A stretch of 64,000 nt of DNA from an uncultured Gammaproteobacteria bacterium (GTDB taxonomy: Bacteria; Pseudomonadota; Gammaproteobacteria; Steroidobacterales; Woeseiaceae), in the NCBI GenBank assembly GCA_937899415.1, contig CALBPI010000059.1:62001-126000 (forward strand), in the 5' to 3' direction. The notes below the pieces were generated by a model. That model did not search any database. It saw only the letters and a program-made list of their open reading frames with translations, and was not told the DNA's origin. The position numbers were made by a program, and so were the translations under genes. Positions 305 to 8,860 of this stretch are shown here, piece by piece (positions within the stretch are counted from its first letter, which is position 1; every line of letters starts with the position of its first letter).

Positions 305-1699
305 CTACAGATAAGGCATAAACAGGCTGCAAAAGGCGTTGCGCAATCGAACGGGCAAGGACGCGCCAGTGAGTTCGGCGGGATCGAGCGCGTCCGCGTC
401 CGCAAGCCGGGCGTCAAAGTAGCCGTCGAGGTCGTGAGCGAGGTGCTCGCTCCAGGCCTCGACCACCACCTCGAAATTCAGCCGCAGGCTGCGCGGGTCA
501 ATGTTGGCAGAACCGACGACGCTGAAGCGCTCATCCACGCGCAGCAGTTTGCTGTGATCGAAACTGCCGCGCTGGTAGGACACGCGCACCCCGTACTGCA
601 ACAACTGCGGCAGCAGGTGCCGCGTGGCCCAGTGCACAAACGGCAGGTTATTGCGCGCGGGCAGCACGATGTCCACGACGACGCCGCGCAGCGTGGCGGC
701 CTGCAGGGCCGACACGATTTCGCGCGGCGGCAGGAAGTACGGCGTCATGATGCGAACGCGTTCGCGCGCACTCGAAATAGCGGTCTGCAACACAAGGGTC
801 AGCAGGTCCACACGGTTGTCGGGCCCATCAATGGTCACGCGACAGCGCGCATCGCCCGCAGTCTCGTCCGCCGTTGCCGGCGTCAGCGGTAGCAGCGTGT
901 TCGTTGTCAGGTACCAGTCGTCGCGAAACACGGCCGCCAGTGACTGCACGACAGGCCCCATAAATCGAAAGTGACTGTCCTTGATCTTCGCGGGCGCCGC
1001 TGCGTCCTCAGGCACGTAACCGGGGCGAATGTTCATGCCGCCCGTGAATGCCACCGCACCGTCAACGACAAGGATTTTGCGGTGGTTGCGCAGGTTGGCG
1101 GCCCACTGAAACGGAATCAGCCGGGGTGGCGCGAACATCGCGACCTCGACACCAAGCGCCGTCAGCGCACGGCGCGTACTGCCCCGTGCGTACAAGGCAC
1201 CCACGCCGTCGAGTAGCACGCGCACGCGAGCGCCCCGCGCCGCGGCCGCGCCCAGCGCGTCGATGAACTGCGTACCGACCCCGCGCTTCTCGAAAATGTA
1301 CTGCGACAACCAGACCGTCTCGCGCGCACCTGCGATCGCCGCAAGCATCGCCTCGTAGGCATCGGGGCCATTGAGATAGGTCTCGATCGCATTGCCTTCG
1401 AGCGGGTCGGGCGCTACGTGCACGGGCGCGTCGCCGAGCACCTGGTAACGCCCGTCGTCAACGGGTGACTCGCCCAGCGCCTTGAGCTTGCGCGCACGGC
1501 GCCGCGCGCGATTGACGCCCAGCAGGAAGTAGAAGAACGCGCCGACTAGCGGCACGAACAGACACACCGCAATCCAGCCGACGGCCGAGCGCGGATCACG
1601 TTTGTTGAGCAGCGCATGCCCCGCGCTCAGGATCGAGACGAGCGCAATAAAGCCACCCCACAGCCAGGCCGTGACGAGCGAGATGTCGAAGCTGATCAT
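305..1699 (-). CDS. cls: Cardiolipin synthase (phospholipase D family)
   Basis: This 464-residue protein has the bacterial ClsA layout. Two N-terminal membrane segments (about residues 7-25 and 38-60, the PLDc_N region) are followed by two PLD catalytic domains. The first HKD motif begins at His206 (HRKILVVDG) and the second at His382 (HSKLLRVDE); each is followed by the usual glycine/serine-asparagine signature (GGMN, GSANIDPRS). Cls transfers a phosphatidyl group between two phosphatidylglycerol molecules, or uses phosphatidylethanolamine, to make cardiolipin in the inner membrane. The gene starts 24 bases after the Usp gene on the same strand, so the two are probably cotranscribed. A second PLD-family gene at 16862-18424 is a lipoprotein of the ClsC type, so this one is the best candidate for the main synthase. 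Confidence 0.92.
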   Translation of the reverse strand: MISFDISLVTAWLWGGFIALVSILSAGHALLNKRDPRSAVGWIAVCLFVPLVGAFFYFLLGVNRARRRARKLKALGESPVDDGRYQVLGDAPVHVAPDPLEGNAIETYLNGPDAYEAMLAAIAGARETVWLSQYIFEKRGVGTQFIDALGAAAARGARVRVLLDGVGALYARGSTRRALTALGVEVAMFAPPRLIPFQWAANLRNHRKILVVDGAVAFTGGMNIRPGYVPEDAAAPAKIKDSHFRFMGPVVQSLAAVFRDDWYLTTNTLLPLTPATADETAGDARCRVTIDGPDNRVDLLTLVLQTAISSARERVRIMTPYFLPPREIVSALQAATLRGVVVDIVLPARNNLPFVHWATRHLLPQLLQYGVRVSYQRGSFDHSKLLRVDERFSVVGSANIDPRSLRLNFEVVVEAWSEHLAHDLDGYFDARLADADALDPAELTGASLPVRLRNAFCSLFMPYL

Positions 1700-1723
1700 G
1701 ACCGGACCCGGCCGGCGCGGGCC

Positions 1724-2536
1724 CTAGCGGTGGAGCATGATCGCCGGCACCGAGGTCTTGTTGACCACGTAGTCGGTGAAGCCACCGAATACGCGCTCAC
1801 GCCAGCGCGGGCGGCTGTAGGCACCCATGAGCAGCAGGTCGCTGTCGGTCTCCTCATAGGCCTGACGAATCTCCGACTCCGTATCGAGACCGCGTGTGGC
1901 GATGCGCTTCGCCTTGATGCCGTGGTGACGCAGGTACTGCTGCAAGTGCGTGCTCTTCGAGCCCGTCGCATCCTCGGGTCCCGACGTGACGATCGTGACG
2001 GCATCCGCCGCCTTGAGCAGCGGCACGGTGGCTTTGACCGCCGTGGCCGCCTCAATGGACTGGTTCCAGCAGATCAGCACGCGCCGCCCGATGGATTTGG
2101 GCTTGCGCGACGGCAGCATCAGTACGGGCGTGCCCGTGTCCATGAGCGCGGCCTGCTGAAACTGACTCGCAGTCACCGACTTTGTGTTCTTGGGCCGCGA
2201 CACGACAATGAGGTCTGACATCGGACCGATGAACGGGAAGCATTTTTGCGGGCTGCCCGTAAGTTCGCGCCAGAGCGCCTGACCGCCGTCTTCGCTGTAG
2301 CGGTGGCGTTTGTGCAGCTCCATGCCGTGCTCGGCCGTGGTCCGATTGAACAGCTCATGAGCCGCCTTGCTGGCCATGTCCATGCGCTTGCCGTCAGCCT
2401 TGCTCTTTTCGAGCTTGTGCGGTCGCAGGTGGTAACCCAGGACATCAAGCGACAGGCGGTCGGCCAGGTCGAACGCCACGGATAGCGCGACGGCACATTC
2501 GGGTCGATCGGCCACGGGAATCAGGACAGTACGCAT
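1724..2536 (-). CDS. Universal stress protein with two Usp domains
   Basis: The 270-residue product carries two tandem UspA folds, as in UspE. The first starts at MRTVLIPVA; the second starts near residue 150 (RVLICWNQS) and ends with LMGAYSR, a glycine pair and VPAIML. I chose the ATG at 2536 over an upstream in-frame ATG at 2581. The protein then begins directly with the first beta strand, and an AGAGG ribosome-binding site lies about seven bases upstream. The glycine-rich ATP-binding stretch is recognisable in the second domain and weaker in the first. Such tandem proteins bind nucleotides and help survival under stress; the precise role is unknown. It is followed on the same strand by cls and lies divergent from the glutathione transferase gene. 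Confidence 0.9.
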   Translation of the reverse strand: MRTVLIPVADRPECAVALSVAFDLADRLSLDVLGYHLRPHKLEKSKADGKRMDMASKAAHELFNRTTAEHGMELHKRHRYSEDGGQALWRELTGSPQKCFPFIGPMSDLIVVSRPKNTKSVTASQFQQAALMDTGTPVLMLPSRKPKSIGRRVLICWNQSIEAATAVKATVPLLKAADAVTIVTSGPEDATGSKSTHLQQYLRHHGIKAKRIATRGLDTESEIRQAYEETDSDLLLMGAYSRPRWRERVFGGFTDYVVNKTSVPAIMLHR

Positions 2537-2640
2537 GCGATACCTCTTCGCGAAGGGTTCCTGCAAGTGAGGTTGCGGCATGGCGGGCGTCGTTGCAATC
2601 GGGGAAAGCCCCTACCCGACCGCGCGCGCAGCGTGCCCGC

Positions 2641-2670
2641 TATACTGGGCCACCCGCGACGGCCCGGAGA
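2641..2670 (+). promoter_or_regulatory. Probable -10 box and ribosome-binding site of the GST gene
   Basis: TATACT at 2641-2646 matches the sigma-70 -10 consensus at five of six positions. It is followed by a short leader with a GGAGA ribosome-binding site at 2666-2670, just before the ATG at 2676. No good -35 hexamer is visible 16-18 bases upstream. The site supports choosing the ATG at 2676 rather than the longer in-frame start at 2580. Confidence 0.45.
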
Positions 2671-2675
2671 CCCCG

Positions 2676-3356
2676 ATGATTACCCTGCACCACCTCGAGA
2701 ATTCTCGCTCACAGCGCATCCTGTGGTTGCTCGAAGAACTCGGCGTCGAGTACGAGATCGAGCGCTACCAGCGCGACCCCGTGACGAGCCTCGCACCGCA
2801 GGCGCTCAAGGACATCCACCCGCTCGGCAAATCGCCCGTCATCACGGACGGCGACGTGACGGTGGCCGAGTCGGGCGCGATCATCGACTACCTCGTCGAA
2901 AACTACGACGACACGGGCCGACTCCAGCCCGACCCCGACGACGCCCAGGGGCTGCGCGACTACCGCTACTTCATGCACTACGCCGAGGGCACCGTCATGC
3001 CCCTGCTCATTGTCGCCTTGCTCATGCGCCGCGTCGACGAAGCCAAGATGCCCTTTTTTGTGAAACCCATTGCGAAGGGCATCACGGGCAAGATCCGCTC
3101 GGGTTACCTCGACCCGAACCTGGGCAACAATCTGGCCTTTATGGAGTCCGAGCTCACGCGCAAGCCCTGGTTTGCGGGCAACCGGTTCACGGCGGCCGAC
3201 ATTCAGATGAGCTTTATCGCCGAGGGGCTCAATGTCAGCGTCGACCTCGCGAGCCAGTTCCCGAAGCTCGCCGCCTTCCTGGCCAAGTGCCACGCCACGC
3301 CCACCTACCAGCGCGCGCTTGAGCGCGGCGGCCCGTTCCAGCTCGGCGCGCGCTGA
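2676..3356 (+). CDS. Glutathione S-transferase family protein
   Basis: The 226-residue product has the cytosolic GST layout. An N-terminal thioredoxin-like domain (residues 1-80) begins MITLHHLENSRSQRIL, and an all-helical C-terminal domain follows. The cis-proline motif (KSPVI) and the ES pair that binds the glutathione gamma-glutamyl group (VAESGAIIDYL) are present near residue 65. The start at 2676 is set by a GGAGA ribosome-binding site and by alignment with the family N-terminus. GSTs conjugate or reduce electrophilic compounds with glutathione. The substrate cannot be told from sequence, and the subclass resembles the plant- and bacterial-type GSTs with a serine near the N-terminus. It lies divergent from the two-domain Usp gene and convergent with the sortase gene. 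Confidence 0.9.
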   Translation: MITLHHLENSRSQRILWLLEELGVEYEIERYQRDPVTSLAPQALKDIHPLGKSPVITDGDVTVAESGAIIDYLVENYDDTGRLQPDPDDAQGLRDYRYFMHYAEGTVMPLLIVALLMRRVDEAKMPFFVKPIAKGITGKIRSGYLDPNLGNNLAFMESELTRKPWFAGNRFTAADIQMSFIAEGLNVSVDLASQFPKLAAFLAKCHATPTYQRALERGGPFQLGAR

Positions 3357-3372
3357 CCGCACCGGACGGCCA

Positions 3373-4032
3373 TCAGGGCGCCATGGCGGCACTCGTGACG
3401 CGCTCTGCGCTGACCACGTAGCGCAGCGGCCCGCCAGGCTGCGGCGTGTCAAACGGGTAGCAGGTGATCAAGGTCAGCCGCGGCACCGCCGTGTCGAGCG
3501 TGACGGTCGCACGACTCACATCGACAACGTCGAGAGAGGTCACCGCGAACGCGTGACGCTGACCATCCTCGCGGTCGATCGTCAGCAGGTCACCCGTGTT
3601 CAATTCCGCCAGAAATCGGAAGTGCGTGTCGCGATGCCCGAGGATCACGCTGTTGCCCACCTCGCCAGGCAGCGCGCTCGAGGCCAGGTGGCCCGGACCA
3701 AACGCCAGCGTGCGACCACTCGCACCCGACAACACGAACAACTCCTCATCCGTGGCGTCCGTCGTGAGGCGCGCGATCGGATAGGTATCAGCCCAGGGCC
3801 AGGGTCGACCCGGCGTGCCGGTGTCGGGCTGTTCGCCGCGTTGCCAGGCGCGCTGCACGAGATGCTGCGCAAAGGCCGCCTTCGCGGGCATATAGAGTCC
3901 GGCACCCAGTTCGATGGCACCAACGGCAAGCAGTACGGTCATGGCAAAAACTCCTGGCCAGCCGCGGATCAGGCGCGACACGTCGCGACGTCCGCTTGGG
4001 GTCGAAACACGCGCCTGAGTACGGCGAGCCAC
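3373..4032 (-). CDS. Class GN sortase of the proteobacterial dedicated sortase system
   Basis: The 219-residue protein has one N-terminal membrane segment (about residues 25-45) and a sortase beta-barrel. All three catalytic residues are visible: His133 (GHRDTH), Cys191 (LITCYPF) and Arg204 (LRYVV). This fits the Gram-negative sortase family known as class GN or marine sortase (TIGR03784 type), which anchors usually a single dedicated target. Its GTG start lies 64 bases inside the 3' end of the target gene, so the two are translationally linked. Other possible starts are the GTG at 3981 and the ATG at 3942, the latter cutting into the membrane segment. With the target gene and the divergent response regulator and kinase it forms a complete four-gene module. 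Confidence 0.93.
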   Translation of the reverse strand: MARRTQARVSTPSGRRDVSRLIRGWPGVFAMTVLLAVGAIELGAGLYMPAKAAFAQHLVQRAWQRGEQPDTGTPGRPWPWADTYPIARLTTDATDEELFVLSGASGRTLAFGPGHLASSALPGEVGNSVILGHRDTHFRFLAELNTGDLLTIDREDGQRHAFAVTSLDVVDVSRATVTLDTAVPRLTLITCYPFDTPQPGGPLRYVVSAERVTSAAMAP

Positions 4033-6101
4033 AGGGCCAGCGCCAGGGCGAGTCCGCCGATCAGCCGCTGCAGGGGCGCGCTGGTGCCCGTTGCTGTGAA
4101 CTGACCCAGCGGCGTCGCGCCGCGAGGTGCCAGACCCGGCACAGCGCTACTTTGAACGGGCCCGGCGGTGCGCACGGGCATTTGCTCGACGGCCACGAGG
4201 CTCGTGACCTCACTGACGATGTGGTGAGACAGCGCCACCTCGAGCATGGCCGCTCGTGCCAGCTCATCGGGTAGCCCCGCACGGCGCGCATCGTCCAGCG
4301 CCTCGAGCTTGTCGCGCGCCCAGGTCACGGCCACGCCATGGCGACTGCGGTCCCGGGCACCCGCGAGCGTAATCTCGTGCGCCCAGGGCATGCCGACGCC
4401 GCCCGCCCACTGCGTACCCGAGACTGAAACGCGCGCGGGCGCCACGCCATCGAAACGGGCGCTGACCTCAATGGGCTCGCCCGCGTAAAGATCCGCTATG
4501 TGCGTGGGATACGCCTCGACGCTCGCACCACCCCAGTCAAATGTCACATCCGTCAGTACAGGCTGCGCCATACGCTCGAACAAGGCGCCCATGCCTTCGG
4601 TGACGCCGCCGGCGTTGCCAATGAGCACGAAGCTGCCGCGGCCGCACTCGGCGGCCTTGCGCATGAACCAGCCATTGGGCGCCGCGCCAATCCCGACCGT
4701 GAACAGGCGGCTCGCACCGATCCAGCCCTCGATGTCGCGGAACAGATCGGCTTCGTTGCCGACAGCGCCATCGGTGACGAAGATTACTTGGCGCAGGTAG
4801 CCGTCGGGCTGGGCACCGCGCAACGCCGCCATGAGCGCGGGCCGCATCTCGGTCCCGCCGTCAGCGCGCTGCGTCTTGAGCCACCGCAGCGCCTCGGTGC
4901 GGTTCTCGGGTGTCGCCATGCGCGGCGCCTTGAACAGTTGCTGCGTGGCGTTATCGAAGGCGATGAGGTTGAAGCGGTCGACGGGGCGCAGCGCATCGAT
5001 GGCGTGGGTCACAGCCGCAACCGCCTCGATGATCGACGCGCCCTGCATGCTGCCCGACGTGTCGAGCACCAGGATGAGTTCGCGCGGTGGCGCCAAATTA
5101 GCGTCCACCGTCATGGGCGGCACCAGTTGAACGAGCGCGTAGCCCGCCTCCCCAGTGGTATGCCCAAACGCGGCGACCTGCGCGTCGGCTGCGCCGTGCG
5201 GCTGCCACTCCAGAATAAAGTCGGCATCGAGCCGCGCCTCACCCGCGACGGTCACGTGCTGGGCTGTGCCTGCGCCGCGCGTCACATCGATGCGGTGGTG
5301 GCGACTCACAATATCGGCGAGCGGCAAACCGACATCGAGGTCGATATTGACGAACAAGGCGTGGCTGCCCGGCGCCAGGTTGGCGGCCGGGACCGCCGTC
5401 GTTGCGGCAGTTGCGACCTTGTGCACTTTGAATTCGCCCGTGCGTGGTGCCGGTTCATAGCGCGGTGTCACGGCTGTCGGGACACGCAGCCGATAACGTT
5501 CACCCTCGCGCGCGATACGCTGCTGGTACTCGATCTCGACAGTAACCACCTCGCCAGGCCCGATATTGGCGAGCGCAGTGGTGAACAGATTGGCGCGCAC
5601 CGTCGAAACGAGCGCAGCGCGTTTGCCGGCGGCGCGGGCCTTGCGGTATGCCTTGCGCGCCTTTTCACGCTCACGAATCTCGCCGACGATGCGGCGCCCG
5701 CCCGCTTCGACCGTCAGGTGATCGACCGCCGCGTCATCGGGCAACGGAAACCGGTACACGGCCTCGATGAAGTCCGCGCTCGTATTCCGAAAGCGCTGCT
5801 TGAGCGTCGTGCGCGCGATGGGTCCGGACACCGTGATGTCGAAGGTGGCATCCAGATGCGGCAGCGGCTGCTCGCCCGACTCGGTACGCATCATGAGCGA
5901 CCCCGTCGTGGGCGTGTCTGACGCCCGGGCGTCGGGCACGGGTGTCGCCACACCCGCAGCAACCACAAGGAGTGCAACCGAACCGCGCGCCAGCGCGCGT
6001 AGTCGCGCCCGAAACCGCGCACCGGGCACCGTCGATGGTGTCCAGAATGTCAGCGCCCGTGCTTTGCGCGCCGTGTTGCGTTGCCTCAGCCAGTCCTGCA
6101 T
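3969..6101 (-). CDS. Sortase target protein with VIT and von Willebrand A domains
   Basis: The 710-residue exported protein has a long basic N-region with a signal segment near residues 40-55. A VIT domain (about 65-195) and a von Willebrand A domain with an intact MIDAS motif, DTSGS at 347-351, follow. The C-terminus holds a hydrophobic anchor (about 677-695) and an Arg-containing tail (RRVFR). This is the TIGR03788-type target, the usual sole substrate of a class GN sortase. I chose the ATG at 6101, preceded by GAGGGAG, over a TTG at 6119. The sorting signal is odd: where an LPxTG-like motif is expected, the protein reads TPLGQFTATG (663-672). The sortase gene overlaps its 3' end. MIDAS domains bind metal ions and protein ligands, so a surface adhesion or sensing role is plausible but unproven. 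Confidence 0.92.
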   Translation of the reverse strand: MQDWLRQRNTARKARALTFWTPSTVPGARFRARLRALARGSVALLVVAAGVATPVPDARASDTPTTGSLMMRTESGEQPLPHLDATFDITVSGPIARTTLKQRFRNTSADFIEAVYRFPLPDDAAVDHLTVEAGGRRIVGEIREREKARKAYRKARAAGKRAALVSTVRANLFTTALANIGPGEVVTVEIEYQQRIAREGERYRLRVPTAVTPRYEPAPRTGEFKVHKVATAATTAVPAANLAPGSHALFVNIDLDVGLPLADIVSRHHRIDVTRGAGTAQHVTVAGEARLDADFILEWQPHGAADAQVAAFGHTTGEAGYALVQLVPPMTVDANLAPPRELILVLDTSGSMQGASIIEAVAAVTHAIDALRPVDRFNLIAFDNATQQLFKAPRMATPENRTEALRWLKTQRADGGTEMRPALMAALRGAQPDGYLRQVIFVTDGAVGNEADLFRDIEGWIGASRLFTVGIGAAPNGWFMRKAAECGRGSFVLIGNAGGVTEGMGALFERMAQPVLTDVTFDWGGASVEAYPTHIADLYAGEPIEVSARFDGVAPARVSVSGTQWAGGVGMPWAHEITLAGARDRSRHGVAVTWARDKLEALDDARRAGLPDELARAAMLEVALSHHIVSEVTSLVAVEQMPVRTAGPVQSSAVPGLAPRGATPLGQFTATGTSAPLQRLIGGLALALALWLAVLRRVFRPQADVATCRA

Positions 6102-6133
6102 CGTTGTGCTCCCTCTCAACCTGGGAACGATTA

Positions 6134-6154
6134 GGCCGCCGGGCCATGGCGGCC
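6134..6154. promoter_or_regulatory. Inverted repeat in the divergent sortase-system promoter region
   Basis: A perfect 7-base inverted repeat, GGCCGCC and GGCGGCC around a 7-base centre, lies in the roughly 97-base interval between the target/sortase operon and the response regulator/kinase operon. It is placed where a shared operator for the response regulator could sit. GC-rich palindromes are common in such a genome and OmpR-type regulators usually bind direct repeats, so this is only a candidate. Confidence 0.28.
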
Positions 6155-6198
6155 ACGTGCGACAGCGATGGCCGAATCAAGAACAATCATGGCGAATT

Positions 6199-6909
6199 GT
6201 GGCGGTGGCTCCATTGGCTGACGCACAACACGTCGTTATCGTCGAGGACGACGCCGCACTCGGCGCCAACTATCGAGAGGCACTCACACGCCAGGGCTAC
6301 GCCGTGTCGCTGTATGTCGACCGCGCAAGCGCGCGCGACGGTATGGCCCACACGCCGCCCGACCTTGTGATCATCGACGTCAACCTGGGCACCGACATCG
6401 AGGGTGGCTTCGAGCTGTGCCGGGAGCTGCGCGCGCAGTCGGCCGTCCTGCCGATCATGTTCCTGACCGCACGCGACAGCGAGTTCGACGCGGTCTCAGG
6501 CCTGCGACTCGGTGCCGACGACTACCTGAGCAAGGACGTGAGCCTTGAGCACTTGATGGCCCGCGTCGCGGCGCTGTTCCGACGCCAGGCGGCACTGGCG
6601 GGCGGCGGCGCCGAACGCCGCTTCACGCGCGGCGCACTGGCCGTCGACGAAGACCGGTTTGCTGTGACCTGGCAGGAGCAGCCCGTCGAGCTCACGCTCA
6701 CGGAGTACTGGCTGGTGCATGCACTCGCGCGCCACCCGGGGCATGTGAAGAGCCGCCAGCAACTCATGGATGCCGCGAACACGGTGCTCGACGACAACAC
6801 AATCACCTCACACGTCAAACGCATCCGCCGAAAATTCGTCGGTATCGACGCCAACTTTGATGCCATCGAGACGGTGTACGGCATGGGTTACCGCTGGCGG
6901 GCGCACTAG
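6199..6909 (+). CDS. pdsR: Response regulator of the dedicated sortase system (OmpR type)
   Basis: The 236-residue product has a receiver domain with the acidic pair after VVIVEDD, the phospho-acceptor Asp60 (LVIIDVN) and the conserved lysine (YLSKD). A C-terminal OmpR/PhoB winged helix ends in the typical VYGMGYRW. Together with the adjacent kinase this matches the response regulator that accompanies class GN sortases (TIGR03787 type). The start is uncertain: GTG 6199, GTG 6205 and TTG 6214 are all in frame just before the receiver domain and none has a strong ribosome-binding site. The kinase gene follows after ten bases. The regulator probably controls the divergent target/sortase genes; that is an inference from arrangement. 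Confidence 0.9.
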   Translation: MAVAPLADAQHVVIVEDDAALGANYREALTRQGYAVSLYVDRASARDGMAHTPPDLVIIDVNLGTDIEGGFELCRELRAQSAVLPIMFLTARDSEFDAVSGLRLGADDYLSKDVSLEHLMARVAALFRRQAALAGGGAERRFTRGALAVDEDRFAVTWQEQPVELTLTEYWLVHALARHPGHVKSRQQLMDAANTVLDDNTITSHVKRIRRKFVGIDANFDAIETVYGMGYRWRAH

Positions 6910-6919
6910 CGCGCACGAC

Positions 6920-8860
6920 GTGCGATTCGGACTGCGACGGCAGCTGCTCGCCATCGGGCTCGTCACGCTCGCGTTGCCGATCGCAAGCGCACTGTACCTG
7001 CGCGAAACCGAACAGGCGTTGCGCAGCGCACAGGCCGGCTTTCTCAATGACCTGGCGCGCGGGCTCGCGCCGCTTATGCCCGCCGTGGACAACCTGTCCC
7101 CGCCCGGGCGCGCCGATGAGGCGCTGTACGCGCACCCGCTGTCTGTGACGCCAACGCTCGATGGCTTCAGCGCGGACTGGCGCCTGCGCGTCGCACCCGT
7201 GCCCGCGGCGGTCGGTGGCGACCAGCTCGGCGTGCTCGTCGGCGAGCGCGACGGCACACTATGGCTTGCGGCCGAGGCGCAACACGCAGCGACGGACGCA
7301 CCACGTTTCGATGTCGCCTGCGGCGACGACCAGGGCGGCCTCGTGCTCACGACGATCGCGCCGATTGCGCCGGGTGCCGTGCTGCCCGCGACCACCGCGT
7401 CGGGCTTCGGCGGACGTATTCGCGGTGACTGGCAACCGACCGCTGACGGCTCGCGGCTCGAGCTGCGACTACCTGCCGGCCTTTGCCATAATCGACTGGG
7501 CCTCGCGGTTCGGTCCGGCGACCGCAGCGCCCGCACGTACCGAGACAGCATCCCCGGTGCGCTGATTCGCATTAACGCGAAGTTGCGCGACACCTTGGCG
7601 AAGAACGCACTGCCGGGCATCGAGACCTTCGCCATCAACCAGTTCGGTTACCGCATCACGCCCGTCATCGGTTCACGCGCGGGCGGGGCCGAGGCGCCGC
7701 GCAAAGGCTTCGCGCAACGGCTCATCGCCGGCCTCATGGGCGGCGATGCGGACGCGGACAGGGCGGTCTTCGAAGCGCAGGCGCATCGACCCGTGGCCGG
7801 TGCGCTCGATGGCGCGCTGGCGGGCAACACGGTGGCGGCACGCTACGCGGCACCGGGCGGCGGTTTGCTGCTCGTCGACGCACGACCACTCGCCGGCGGC
7901 GCGCTGGTGCTCGTGCAGGACGCCGAAGCCATCCTCACACTCGCCAATCCGTCGTTGCAGCGACTGACCACGGCGATCATCGTCACGACGCTGGCCGTCG
8001 TGCTGTTGCTGCTGGCTTATGCGAGCTGGTTGTCGTGGCGCGTGCGGCGACTGGCCCGACACGCGAGCCGTGCGGTCGACGCGCACGGCCAGATCCAGGA
8101 CGTACCGCCGGATACGGCGGCCGGCGACGAGATCGGCGACCTCGCACGCGACATGCGCCAGATGCTGCGGCGTACCGCCGAACAGCAACGGTGGCTCGCC
8201 GCCATGGCCGACACGTTGTCGCACGAGCTGCGCACGCCGCTGGCCGTCGTGCAGTCTTCGCTCGACAATCTTGAGCAGGGATCACTGGATGCCGATCAGA
8301 AGCAGCTCACTGATCGCGCCGCCGACGGCGTCCTGCGCCTGCGGGCGATCCTGAATGCGGTTTCCAACGCGAGCCGCGCCGAACAGGCGGCGCGAACGGC
8401 CGACACGGCGTCCGTTGCACTCGCACCGCTTGTCGCTCAGCTCAGGGACGCCTATGCGGCGACGTTCCCGAGCCACGCCTTCGAACTCCTGAGCAATGCG
8501 ACACCGACCGTCAATGGTACGGCCGAACTCCTCGTGCAGGCGCTCGACAAGCTCGTCGAAAACGCCGTGCGCTTCGCCCCCGAGGGCTCCGCCATCCAGC
8601 TCGAACTGGAGACGCACGACGCCCACGCGGTCGTGCAGGTTCGCAACCAGGGACCGGCGCTGCCCGAGGGCGACCCGGCACGGCTGTTCGACTCCTTCGT
8701 GTCGACGGGGGGCACAGGCAGCTCCCACCTCGGGTTCGGCCTGTACATCGCACGACTCATCGTCGAGGCGCATGGTGGCGGTGCAGCAGCCGCTGACTGG
8801 CACGACGATGCCGCATCGGGCGTGGTGGTCACGCTGCGCCTGCCGCTTGTCGAAAGCTGA
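6920..8860 (+). CDS. pdsS: Sensor histidine kinase of the dedicated sortase system
   Basis: The 646-residue kinase has membrane segments at about residues 9-27 and 349-373 flanking a roughly 320-residue periplasmic sensor region. A HAMP linker follows, then an H-box with the phospho-acceptor His435 (LSHELRTPL), an N-box with Asn548 (LVENAVRF) and a glycine box near 604-620 (GFGLYIARL). This is the kinase type (TIGR03785) found with proteobacterial sortases. The GTG at 6920 is chosen because the protein then begins VRFGLRRQLL, directly before the first membrane segment. It partners with the preceding response regulator. The large periplasmic region suggests sensing of an envelope signal, perhaps the state of the sorted protein, but the ligand is unknown. 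Confidence 0.9.
   Translation: MRFGLRRQLLAIGLVTLALPIASALYLRETEQALRSAQAGFLNDLARGLAPLMPAVDNLSPPGRADEALYAHPLSVTPTLDGFSADWRLRVAPVPAAVGGDQLGVLVGERDGTLWLAAEAQHAATDAPRFDVACGDDQGGLVLTTIAPIAPGAVLPATTASGFGGRIRGDWQPTADGSRLELRLPAGLCHNRLGLAVRSGDRSARTYRDSIPGALIRINAKLRDTLAKNALPGIETFAINQFGYRITPVIGSRAGGAEAPRKGFAQRLIAGLMGGDADADRAVFEAQAHRPVAGALDGALAGNTVAARYAAPGGGLLLVDARPLAGGALVLVQDAEAILTLANPSLQRLTTAIIVTTLAVVLLLLAYASWLSWRVRRLARHASRAVDAHGQIQDVPPDTAAGDEIGDLARDMRQMLRRTAEQQRWLAAMADTLSHELRTPLAVVQSSLDNLEQGSLDADQKQLTDRAADGVLRLRAILNAVSNASRAEQAARTADTASVALAPLVAQLRDAYAATFPSHAFELLSNATPTVNGTAELLVQALDKLVENAVRFAPEGSAIQLELETHDAHAVVQVRNQGPALPEGDPARLFDSFVSTGGTGSSHLGFGLYIARLIVEAHGGGAAAADWHDDAASGVVVTLRLPLVES

Follow-up and report, generated by a model that had tools for sequence, protein, structure and literature searches.

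The Pds system, in which a Gram-negative sortase is dedicated to its own substrate, is already known, and is made up of a class GN sortase (TIGR03784), a VIT/VWA-domain target (TIGR03788), a response regulator (TIGR03787) and a histidine kinase (TIGR03785). One report describes the part that sortases play in Gram-negative bacteria as unknown (PMC10581121), and among the matches listed in a search of the open-access literature on class GN or Gram-negative sortases and on PdsO there was no study of the mechanism of this enzyme or of its kinase sensor. Contacts with position P3 of the sorting signal are described for other sortases in two papers: in S. pyogenes SrtA bound to LPATS, A140 packs against P3 (PMC9520033), and in the class E enzyme SrtE1 the same is reported for Ala249 of strand β4, while a tyrosine of the β3/β4 loop is suggested to form a bond with the P3 amide, a group missing from Pro (PMC5148588).

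The locus considered here occupies positions 3373–8860 of a 64 kb stretch of DNA (the whole of which is referred to as the window), on contig C59 of a 3.94 Mb, 98.4% complete genome of the family Woeseiaceae, and is a class GN dedicated-sortase (Pds) module with a sortase, a single VIT/VWA target and a regulator plus kinase. An initial annotation had described it as a divergent module, and the arrangement is real, the target lying head-to-head with the regulator/kinase pair. The sortase (3373–4032, minus strand, GTG start at 4032 with an alternative GTG at 3979–3981) scores 210 bits against a cut-off of 158 for TIGR03784 ‘class GN sortase’, and alignment places its catalytic residues His133 (3634–3636), Cys191 (3460–3462) and Arg204 (3421–3423), all on the minus strand, exactly where they had been assigned in this open reading frame. 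The TIGR03788-type target of 716 residues (3969–6119 with its stop, minus strand, TTG at 6119 and ATG at 6099–6101) reaches 634 bits against a cut-off of 552, carries VIT (PF08487) and VWA domains, retains the MIDAS motif DTSGS, and is indeed the one VIT/VWA target that had been proposed. Next to it, a PdsR-type response regulator of 234 residues (6205–6909, plus strand, starting at GTG 6205 or TTG 6214) scores 354 bits, above the TIGR03787 cut-off of 336. The PdsS-type histidine kinase that follows (646 residues, 6920–8860, plus strand) starts near GTG 6920 rather than at the ORF start 6770, and its best match is TIGR03785, at 374 bits against a cut-off of 612, a value that all six of the relatives’ kinases tested also fall short of (469–597). 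Thus, of the suggested matched regulator and kinase, the regulator and its head-to-head layout stand, whereas the kinase appears PdsS-like by position and best match and is not filed as a TIGR03785 member.

Between the divergently oriented target and regulator genes, positions 6120–6204 (no strand) are presumed from their location to be a shared control region. In 124 of the 210 relatives’ loci having at least 700 bases upstream, a regulator similar to that of the window stands head-to-head with the target; this number is a lower bound, since the query was the window’s own regulator and some stretches are cut, and 46 further loci were too short to judge. The reported lack of PdsO extends to the whole genome, where no protein reaches the TIGR03789 cut-off of 152.2 bits, the best, on contig C55, scoring 118.9. 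This best PdsO-like match is an OmpA-like protein (L264, G000:C55:66768-67412) encoded far from the sortase and aligning to PdsO positions 30–242 of 243. Beyond the sortase, at 305–3353, are ordinary neighbours, namely a phospholipase-D-type protein, a universal stress protein and a glutathione S-transferase; there is no tRNA in the 64 kb window, and no over-threshold Rfam match in it. Elsewhere, plasmid records (H1, H4, H5, H6, H9, H11, H12 and H22–H25 in all) carry related genes, annotated as class GN sortase in Rhizobium, Novosphingobium and Phyllobacterium and as pdsS in Salinivibrio.

The sortase is the only PF04203 match in the genome, which has one over-cut-off target and one convincing tail, and these together point to one enzyme for one substrate. 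The search of the whole genome for a second protein with the same tail, which the initial annotation had recommended, was run with a profile of 23 tails and finds just the target (E 2.8e-12), the next match having E 0.017 and a stop in frame. Among ORFs of at least 80 aa in the 64 kb window, a motif-plus-helix rule fits none except the target. A second VIT/VWA protein, scoring about 490–510 bits, is present in several genomes (G009:C6, G016:C5, G005:C75, G008:C1:3389362), its match ending before the model tail; family members with GlyGly-CTERM or PEP-CTERM tails are described in the literature (PMC3237569).

That the target lacks LPxTG, as had been noted, is literally true, but this appears to be mostly an alignment matter. 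The targets of relatives end in [FLY]PxTAT, followed by a hydrophobic helix and then basic residues, and the window segment QFTATGTSAPLQRLIG aligns without gaps to GFPATATSAPVQRLIG of locus L008, through the motif and into the anchor. The putative sorting signal, assigned by this alignment, is FTATGT (residues 674–679, P4–P2′, 4083–4100, minus strand), which falls opposite the FPATAT or FPATGT of relatives and is followed by a C-terminal anchor of hydrophobic helix and basic tail (3972–4082, minus strand). The Ala-to-Gly change in its core is shared with L038 and L044 (both FPATGT), so that the ‘TATG’ singled out in the initial annotation would be the normal core carrying this substitution. 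Whether that motif is standard in close relatives had been posed as a check, and the answer is divided: the T-[AG]-T core is indeed standard (TAT in 167 and TGT in 7 of the 210 target/sortase pairs defined below), but Thr in place of Pro occurs in only two. Helix, tail and x-T-G-T core are all present in the window target while Pro is replaced by Thr, and, going by the aligned sequences, this Thr at P3 is the sole unusual residue of the signal. Over the 211 targets with a motif found, P1 is Thr in 192, P1′ is Ala in 195 and Gly in 9, and P2′ is Thr in 195. The scissile Thr that sortase signals have at P1 gives way to Gly in 18 of the 211, as in YPAGAT or LPQGAT (L041, L043, L081, L089, L115, L129). 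Were FTATGT not the processing site, the true signal would lie elsewhere, for instance nearer to TPLGQ; taken as a bare string the motif stands out little, its score being reached in 132 of 5000 shuffles of the segment before the anchor, but the ungapped match to relatives running through the motif into the anchor makes such a misplacement highly improbable.

The pair set was drawn from 256 loci with a target, less 23 duplicates, 19 loci without a sortase in the stretch, two cut or short targets and one cut sortase, leaving 211 plus the window; removal of L079, for which a sortase core could not be located, and of L226, for which a motif could not, then gave 210 pairs including the window. For L091 the motif copy closest to the anchor was chosen manually, and 38 plasmid sortase records were left out. 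Catalytic His and Cys are found in 210 of 210 sortases, partly by construction as the rule for cutting out the core requires both, and Arg in 210 of 210 without such a requirement; an earlier alignment made without the core rule recovered His for 209 and Cys for 203 of 212, the others showing gaps or wrongly picked segments. At P3, Pro is found in 180 pairs, Ala in 22, Val in three, Leu in two, Thr in two and Gly in one. The 30 pairs without Pro are scattered over the sortase tree, so that its loss recurs and is not by itself a sign of decay.

Thr at P3 is confined to the window and L005, and it is in these two pairs that the sortase departs from its relatives at a position expected to touch P3. 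Two positions ahead of the catalytic His, the residue is Ala in 140 of the 210 sortases, Ser in 40, Gly in 23, Thr in three and Val in two, the remaining two being Leu in the window (Leu131, codon CTC, 3640–3642, minus strand) and Met in L005 (codon ATG), each two base changes away from Ala. Leu/Met at this site and Thr at P3 therefore coincide in the same two of 210 pairs and in no other. In the predicted structure of the window sortase (pLDDT 91.5), to which the SrtA complex 7s4o aligns with Z 15.6 and an rmsd of 2.9 over 138 residues, strand 127–131 ends at Leu131. It is also the only sortase column in which the window and L005 both carry residues unseen elsewhere; as a control, such a column arises between the window and 6 of 208 other sortases, and between L005 and 2 of 208. 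The sisters of L005 (L013 and L030) combine FPATAT with Ala, with 100/99 support in a target tree built without the tail, indicating that the L005 change is recent and its own. The sister of the window in the sortase tree is L038, with FPATGT and Ala, and the window stands apart from L005 in both trees, although these do not agree on where it belongs: the sortase tree, from a quick search, gives its position an SH-aLRT of 84, and in the target tree it sits on a very long branch beyond the remaining members of the family. With L005 placed among Pro/Ala sisters, the two co-changes look independent. Dependent evolution fits better than independent evolution (LR 21.2, p 3e-4), on a quickly built tree in which many branches are weak. 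When 107 genomes of the family, not all of which carry the system, were scanned with a DNA pattern that places a bulky residue ahead of [GA]HRDTHF, just G000 and G033 matched, and the same pattern yields no third Leu/Met case in two other orders (0 of 54 and 0 of 24 genomes).

Taken at the level of aligned residues, the window and L005 look like pairs with a co-adapted S3 pocket, re-tuned rather than broken, in a sample of two that was noticed after the fact. The initial annotation had left the choice between changed specificity and decay, and changed specificity is the better option, since the P3 Thr goes with a sortase change at the P3-contact residue that is seen in one other pair only, while decay finds no support. 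The reading we favour, at a probability of roughly 0.5, is therefore that of an intact Gram-negative dedicated-sortase module in which the enzyme and its single substrate have changed together.

A serious competitor, to which we would give somewhat less than even odds, is a tolerant enzyme: class GN sortases might depend chiefly on the T-A-T core and on a hydrophobic residue at P4, with P3 drifting freely and Leu131 an unrelated neutral change. Pro is, after all, missing from 30 of 210 pairs and replaced by five different residues, most of these pairs being without a bulky residue at the contact site, and SrtE1 is reported to cut both LAETG and LPETG (PMC5148588). Specifically, the non-Thr losses to Val (three), Leu (two), Ala (22) and Gly (one) pair with Ala, Ser or Thr at the contact site, so that a bulky residue there is at most one solution and is not needed for the loss of Pro. 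Free drift does not, however, account readily for Leu/Met at the contact site being absent from all 208 other pairs and falling exactly on the two Thr targets, and the retention of Pro in 180 of 210 suggests that it is under selection.

A general link between Pro loss and the residue two before His was considered and rejected: Ser there accompanies non-Pro targets more often than Pro targets (14 of 30, against 26 of 180) but ranks 55th of 525 traits on the tree. In this tree scan for association with Pro loss, which ranked 525 of 673 planned traits against an inflated background, Ala104 came first, Asn116 second and Asp104 eighth, with unrelated columns scoring nearly as high, so that the association with positions 104 and 116 is a lead only. 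Before tree correction, Asp104 accompanied 14 of 30 non-Pro and 13 of 180 Pro targets, and Asn116 8 of 30 and 2 of 179, respectively; an independent-pairs test found four supported pairs, giving it no power, and 20 pairs on an unsupported best tree. Both positions fall in the β3/β4 loop of the sortase model, the window itself having Ala104 and Leu116, and by analogy with the loop tyrosine of SrtE1, Asp104 and Asn116 could likewise bond the freed P3 amide. A broader and more speculative proposal, which we regard as rather doubtful as a whole, is that class GN sortases hold a natural record of P3-specificity change, in which Pro would have been lost repeatedly, S3 would have been refitted by a β4 Leu/Met for Thr (window, L005) or by Asp104/Asn116 elsewhere, and a CBM9-Cache sugar-sensing kinase would decide when the system is made.

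The opposite possibility, a module no longer in use whose target signal is drifting, draws on the divergence of two of its proteins. The target has the lowest over-cut-off TIGR03788 score among family-mates with complete matches, and its end branch in the target tree with the tail left out is 2.75 against a median of 0.26, a rate of change that leans towards loosened constraint. The kinase sensor, too, is more divergent from those of relatives (about 25% mean identity) than these are from each other (35%). Nonetheless, all four reading frames remain open, the three catalytic residues are in place, MIDAS is kept, the regulator is above its cut-off, and the sortase, unlike its very divergent target, is ordinary, with two private residues where the family median is 1 and the maximum 9. 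We thus consider decay improbable, and return to an intact, re-tuned pair as the preferred reading.

What the large periplasmic domain of the kinase senses, a question also raised in the initial annotation, can be approached through its predicted fold. The region shares 20–30% identity with those of 36 relatives, and appears to consist of a CBM9-like sugar-binding fold (residues 67–218, 7118–7573, plus strand), assigned by fold and profile matches, followed by a membrane-proximal Cache-like domain (residues about 220–335, 7577–7924, plus strand), assigned by a fold match to 5wbf. A profile of 37 kinase regions finds the CBM9 modules of xylanases (7nwn, E 1.3e-4; 1i82, E 0.013), and the model of the window region (pLDDT 82.3) resembles 7nwn with Z 14.9 and an rmsd of 2.5 over 144 residues, and 1i82 with Z 14.7, both across residues 67–219. 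After the CBM9 rows, the three next entries have Z 11.2–12.9 over the same region and the rest at most 8.9; Foldseek agrees on CBM9 (E 2.1e-5). The double Cache structure 5wbf matches kinase model residues 26–340 with a middling Z of 8.7. Pfam found neither CBM9_1 (PF06452) nor dCache_1 in the window’s own kinase region (0 families), and among the 37 members CBM9_1 in seven (weakly, best E 0.0017) and dCache_1 in nine. Given this combination of CBM9-like and Cache-like folds, the best guess for the kinase cue is a carbohydrate.

A working model of the module may be put forward along these lines. The VIT/VWA protein would be exported and stay anchored in the inner membrane through its C-terminal helix, and the sortase, as inferred from sortases in general, would cut FTAT|GT after Thr via Cys191 and pass the protein to an amine acceptor. 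Leu131, replacing the usual Ala, Ser or Gly at the end of strand β4, would refit the S3 pocket that normally touches Pro to the Thr found here at P3. The divergent regulator/kinase pair probably sets expression, with the kinase reading a carbohydrate through its CBM9-like and Cache-like sensor. Such a model bears on sortase engineering, in which moving an enzyme off Pro at P3 is hard: as related in the SrtE1 study, turning SrtA towards LAxTG took 11 mutations, and one guided mutation abolished recognition of either signal (PMC5148588). Two natural cases of a paired shift, at a single position of the enzyme and a single position of its substrate, would offer a small and directly testable template, and a predicted sugar-sensing kinase beside the sortase gene would provide a first clue to the conditions under which the system is used.

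Comparison with known systems sets these features in context. Among solved folds the window sortase is closest to the class D enzyme 4d70 (Z 20.3), and among solved sequences, by profile, to 2ln7 (E 1.6e-21); NF058671 ‘LPxTATN-specific’ also matches it (85 bits), and a T-A-T type core is common to both the class GN signals and those of class D (LPxTA/LPxTATN type). It nevertheless stays short of the cut-offs for class D, with 85 bits where 140 are required and 84 where 165 are, and belongs to a Gram-negative bacterium with a single target. With the class E enzyme SrtE1 (LAxTG) it would share acceptance of a non-Pro P3 that packs on the residue two before His, but in SrtE1 this residue is Ala and the β3/β4-loop Tyr is the proposed determinant (PMC5148588), whereas in the window the residue itself is altered; the class E profile NF033747 gives 48 of 160 bits. 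The kinase sensor resembles CBM9 modules by fold and by profile, and differs from them in being predicted within a sensor kinase rather than a xylanase, and in having no Pfam match in the window’s own sequence. With the Pds system the window has in common all four parts, adjacent to one another, and one target per genome, and it departs from that system in its P3 Thr, its sortase Leu131, a kinase below the family cut-off and the lack of an over-cut-off PdsO. What this locus would add to the Pds system as known is the pairing of a P3 Thr with Leu131 and a kinase sensor read as CBM9 plus Cache, neither of which appeared among the matches listed in the open-access literature.
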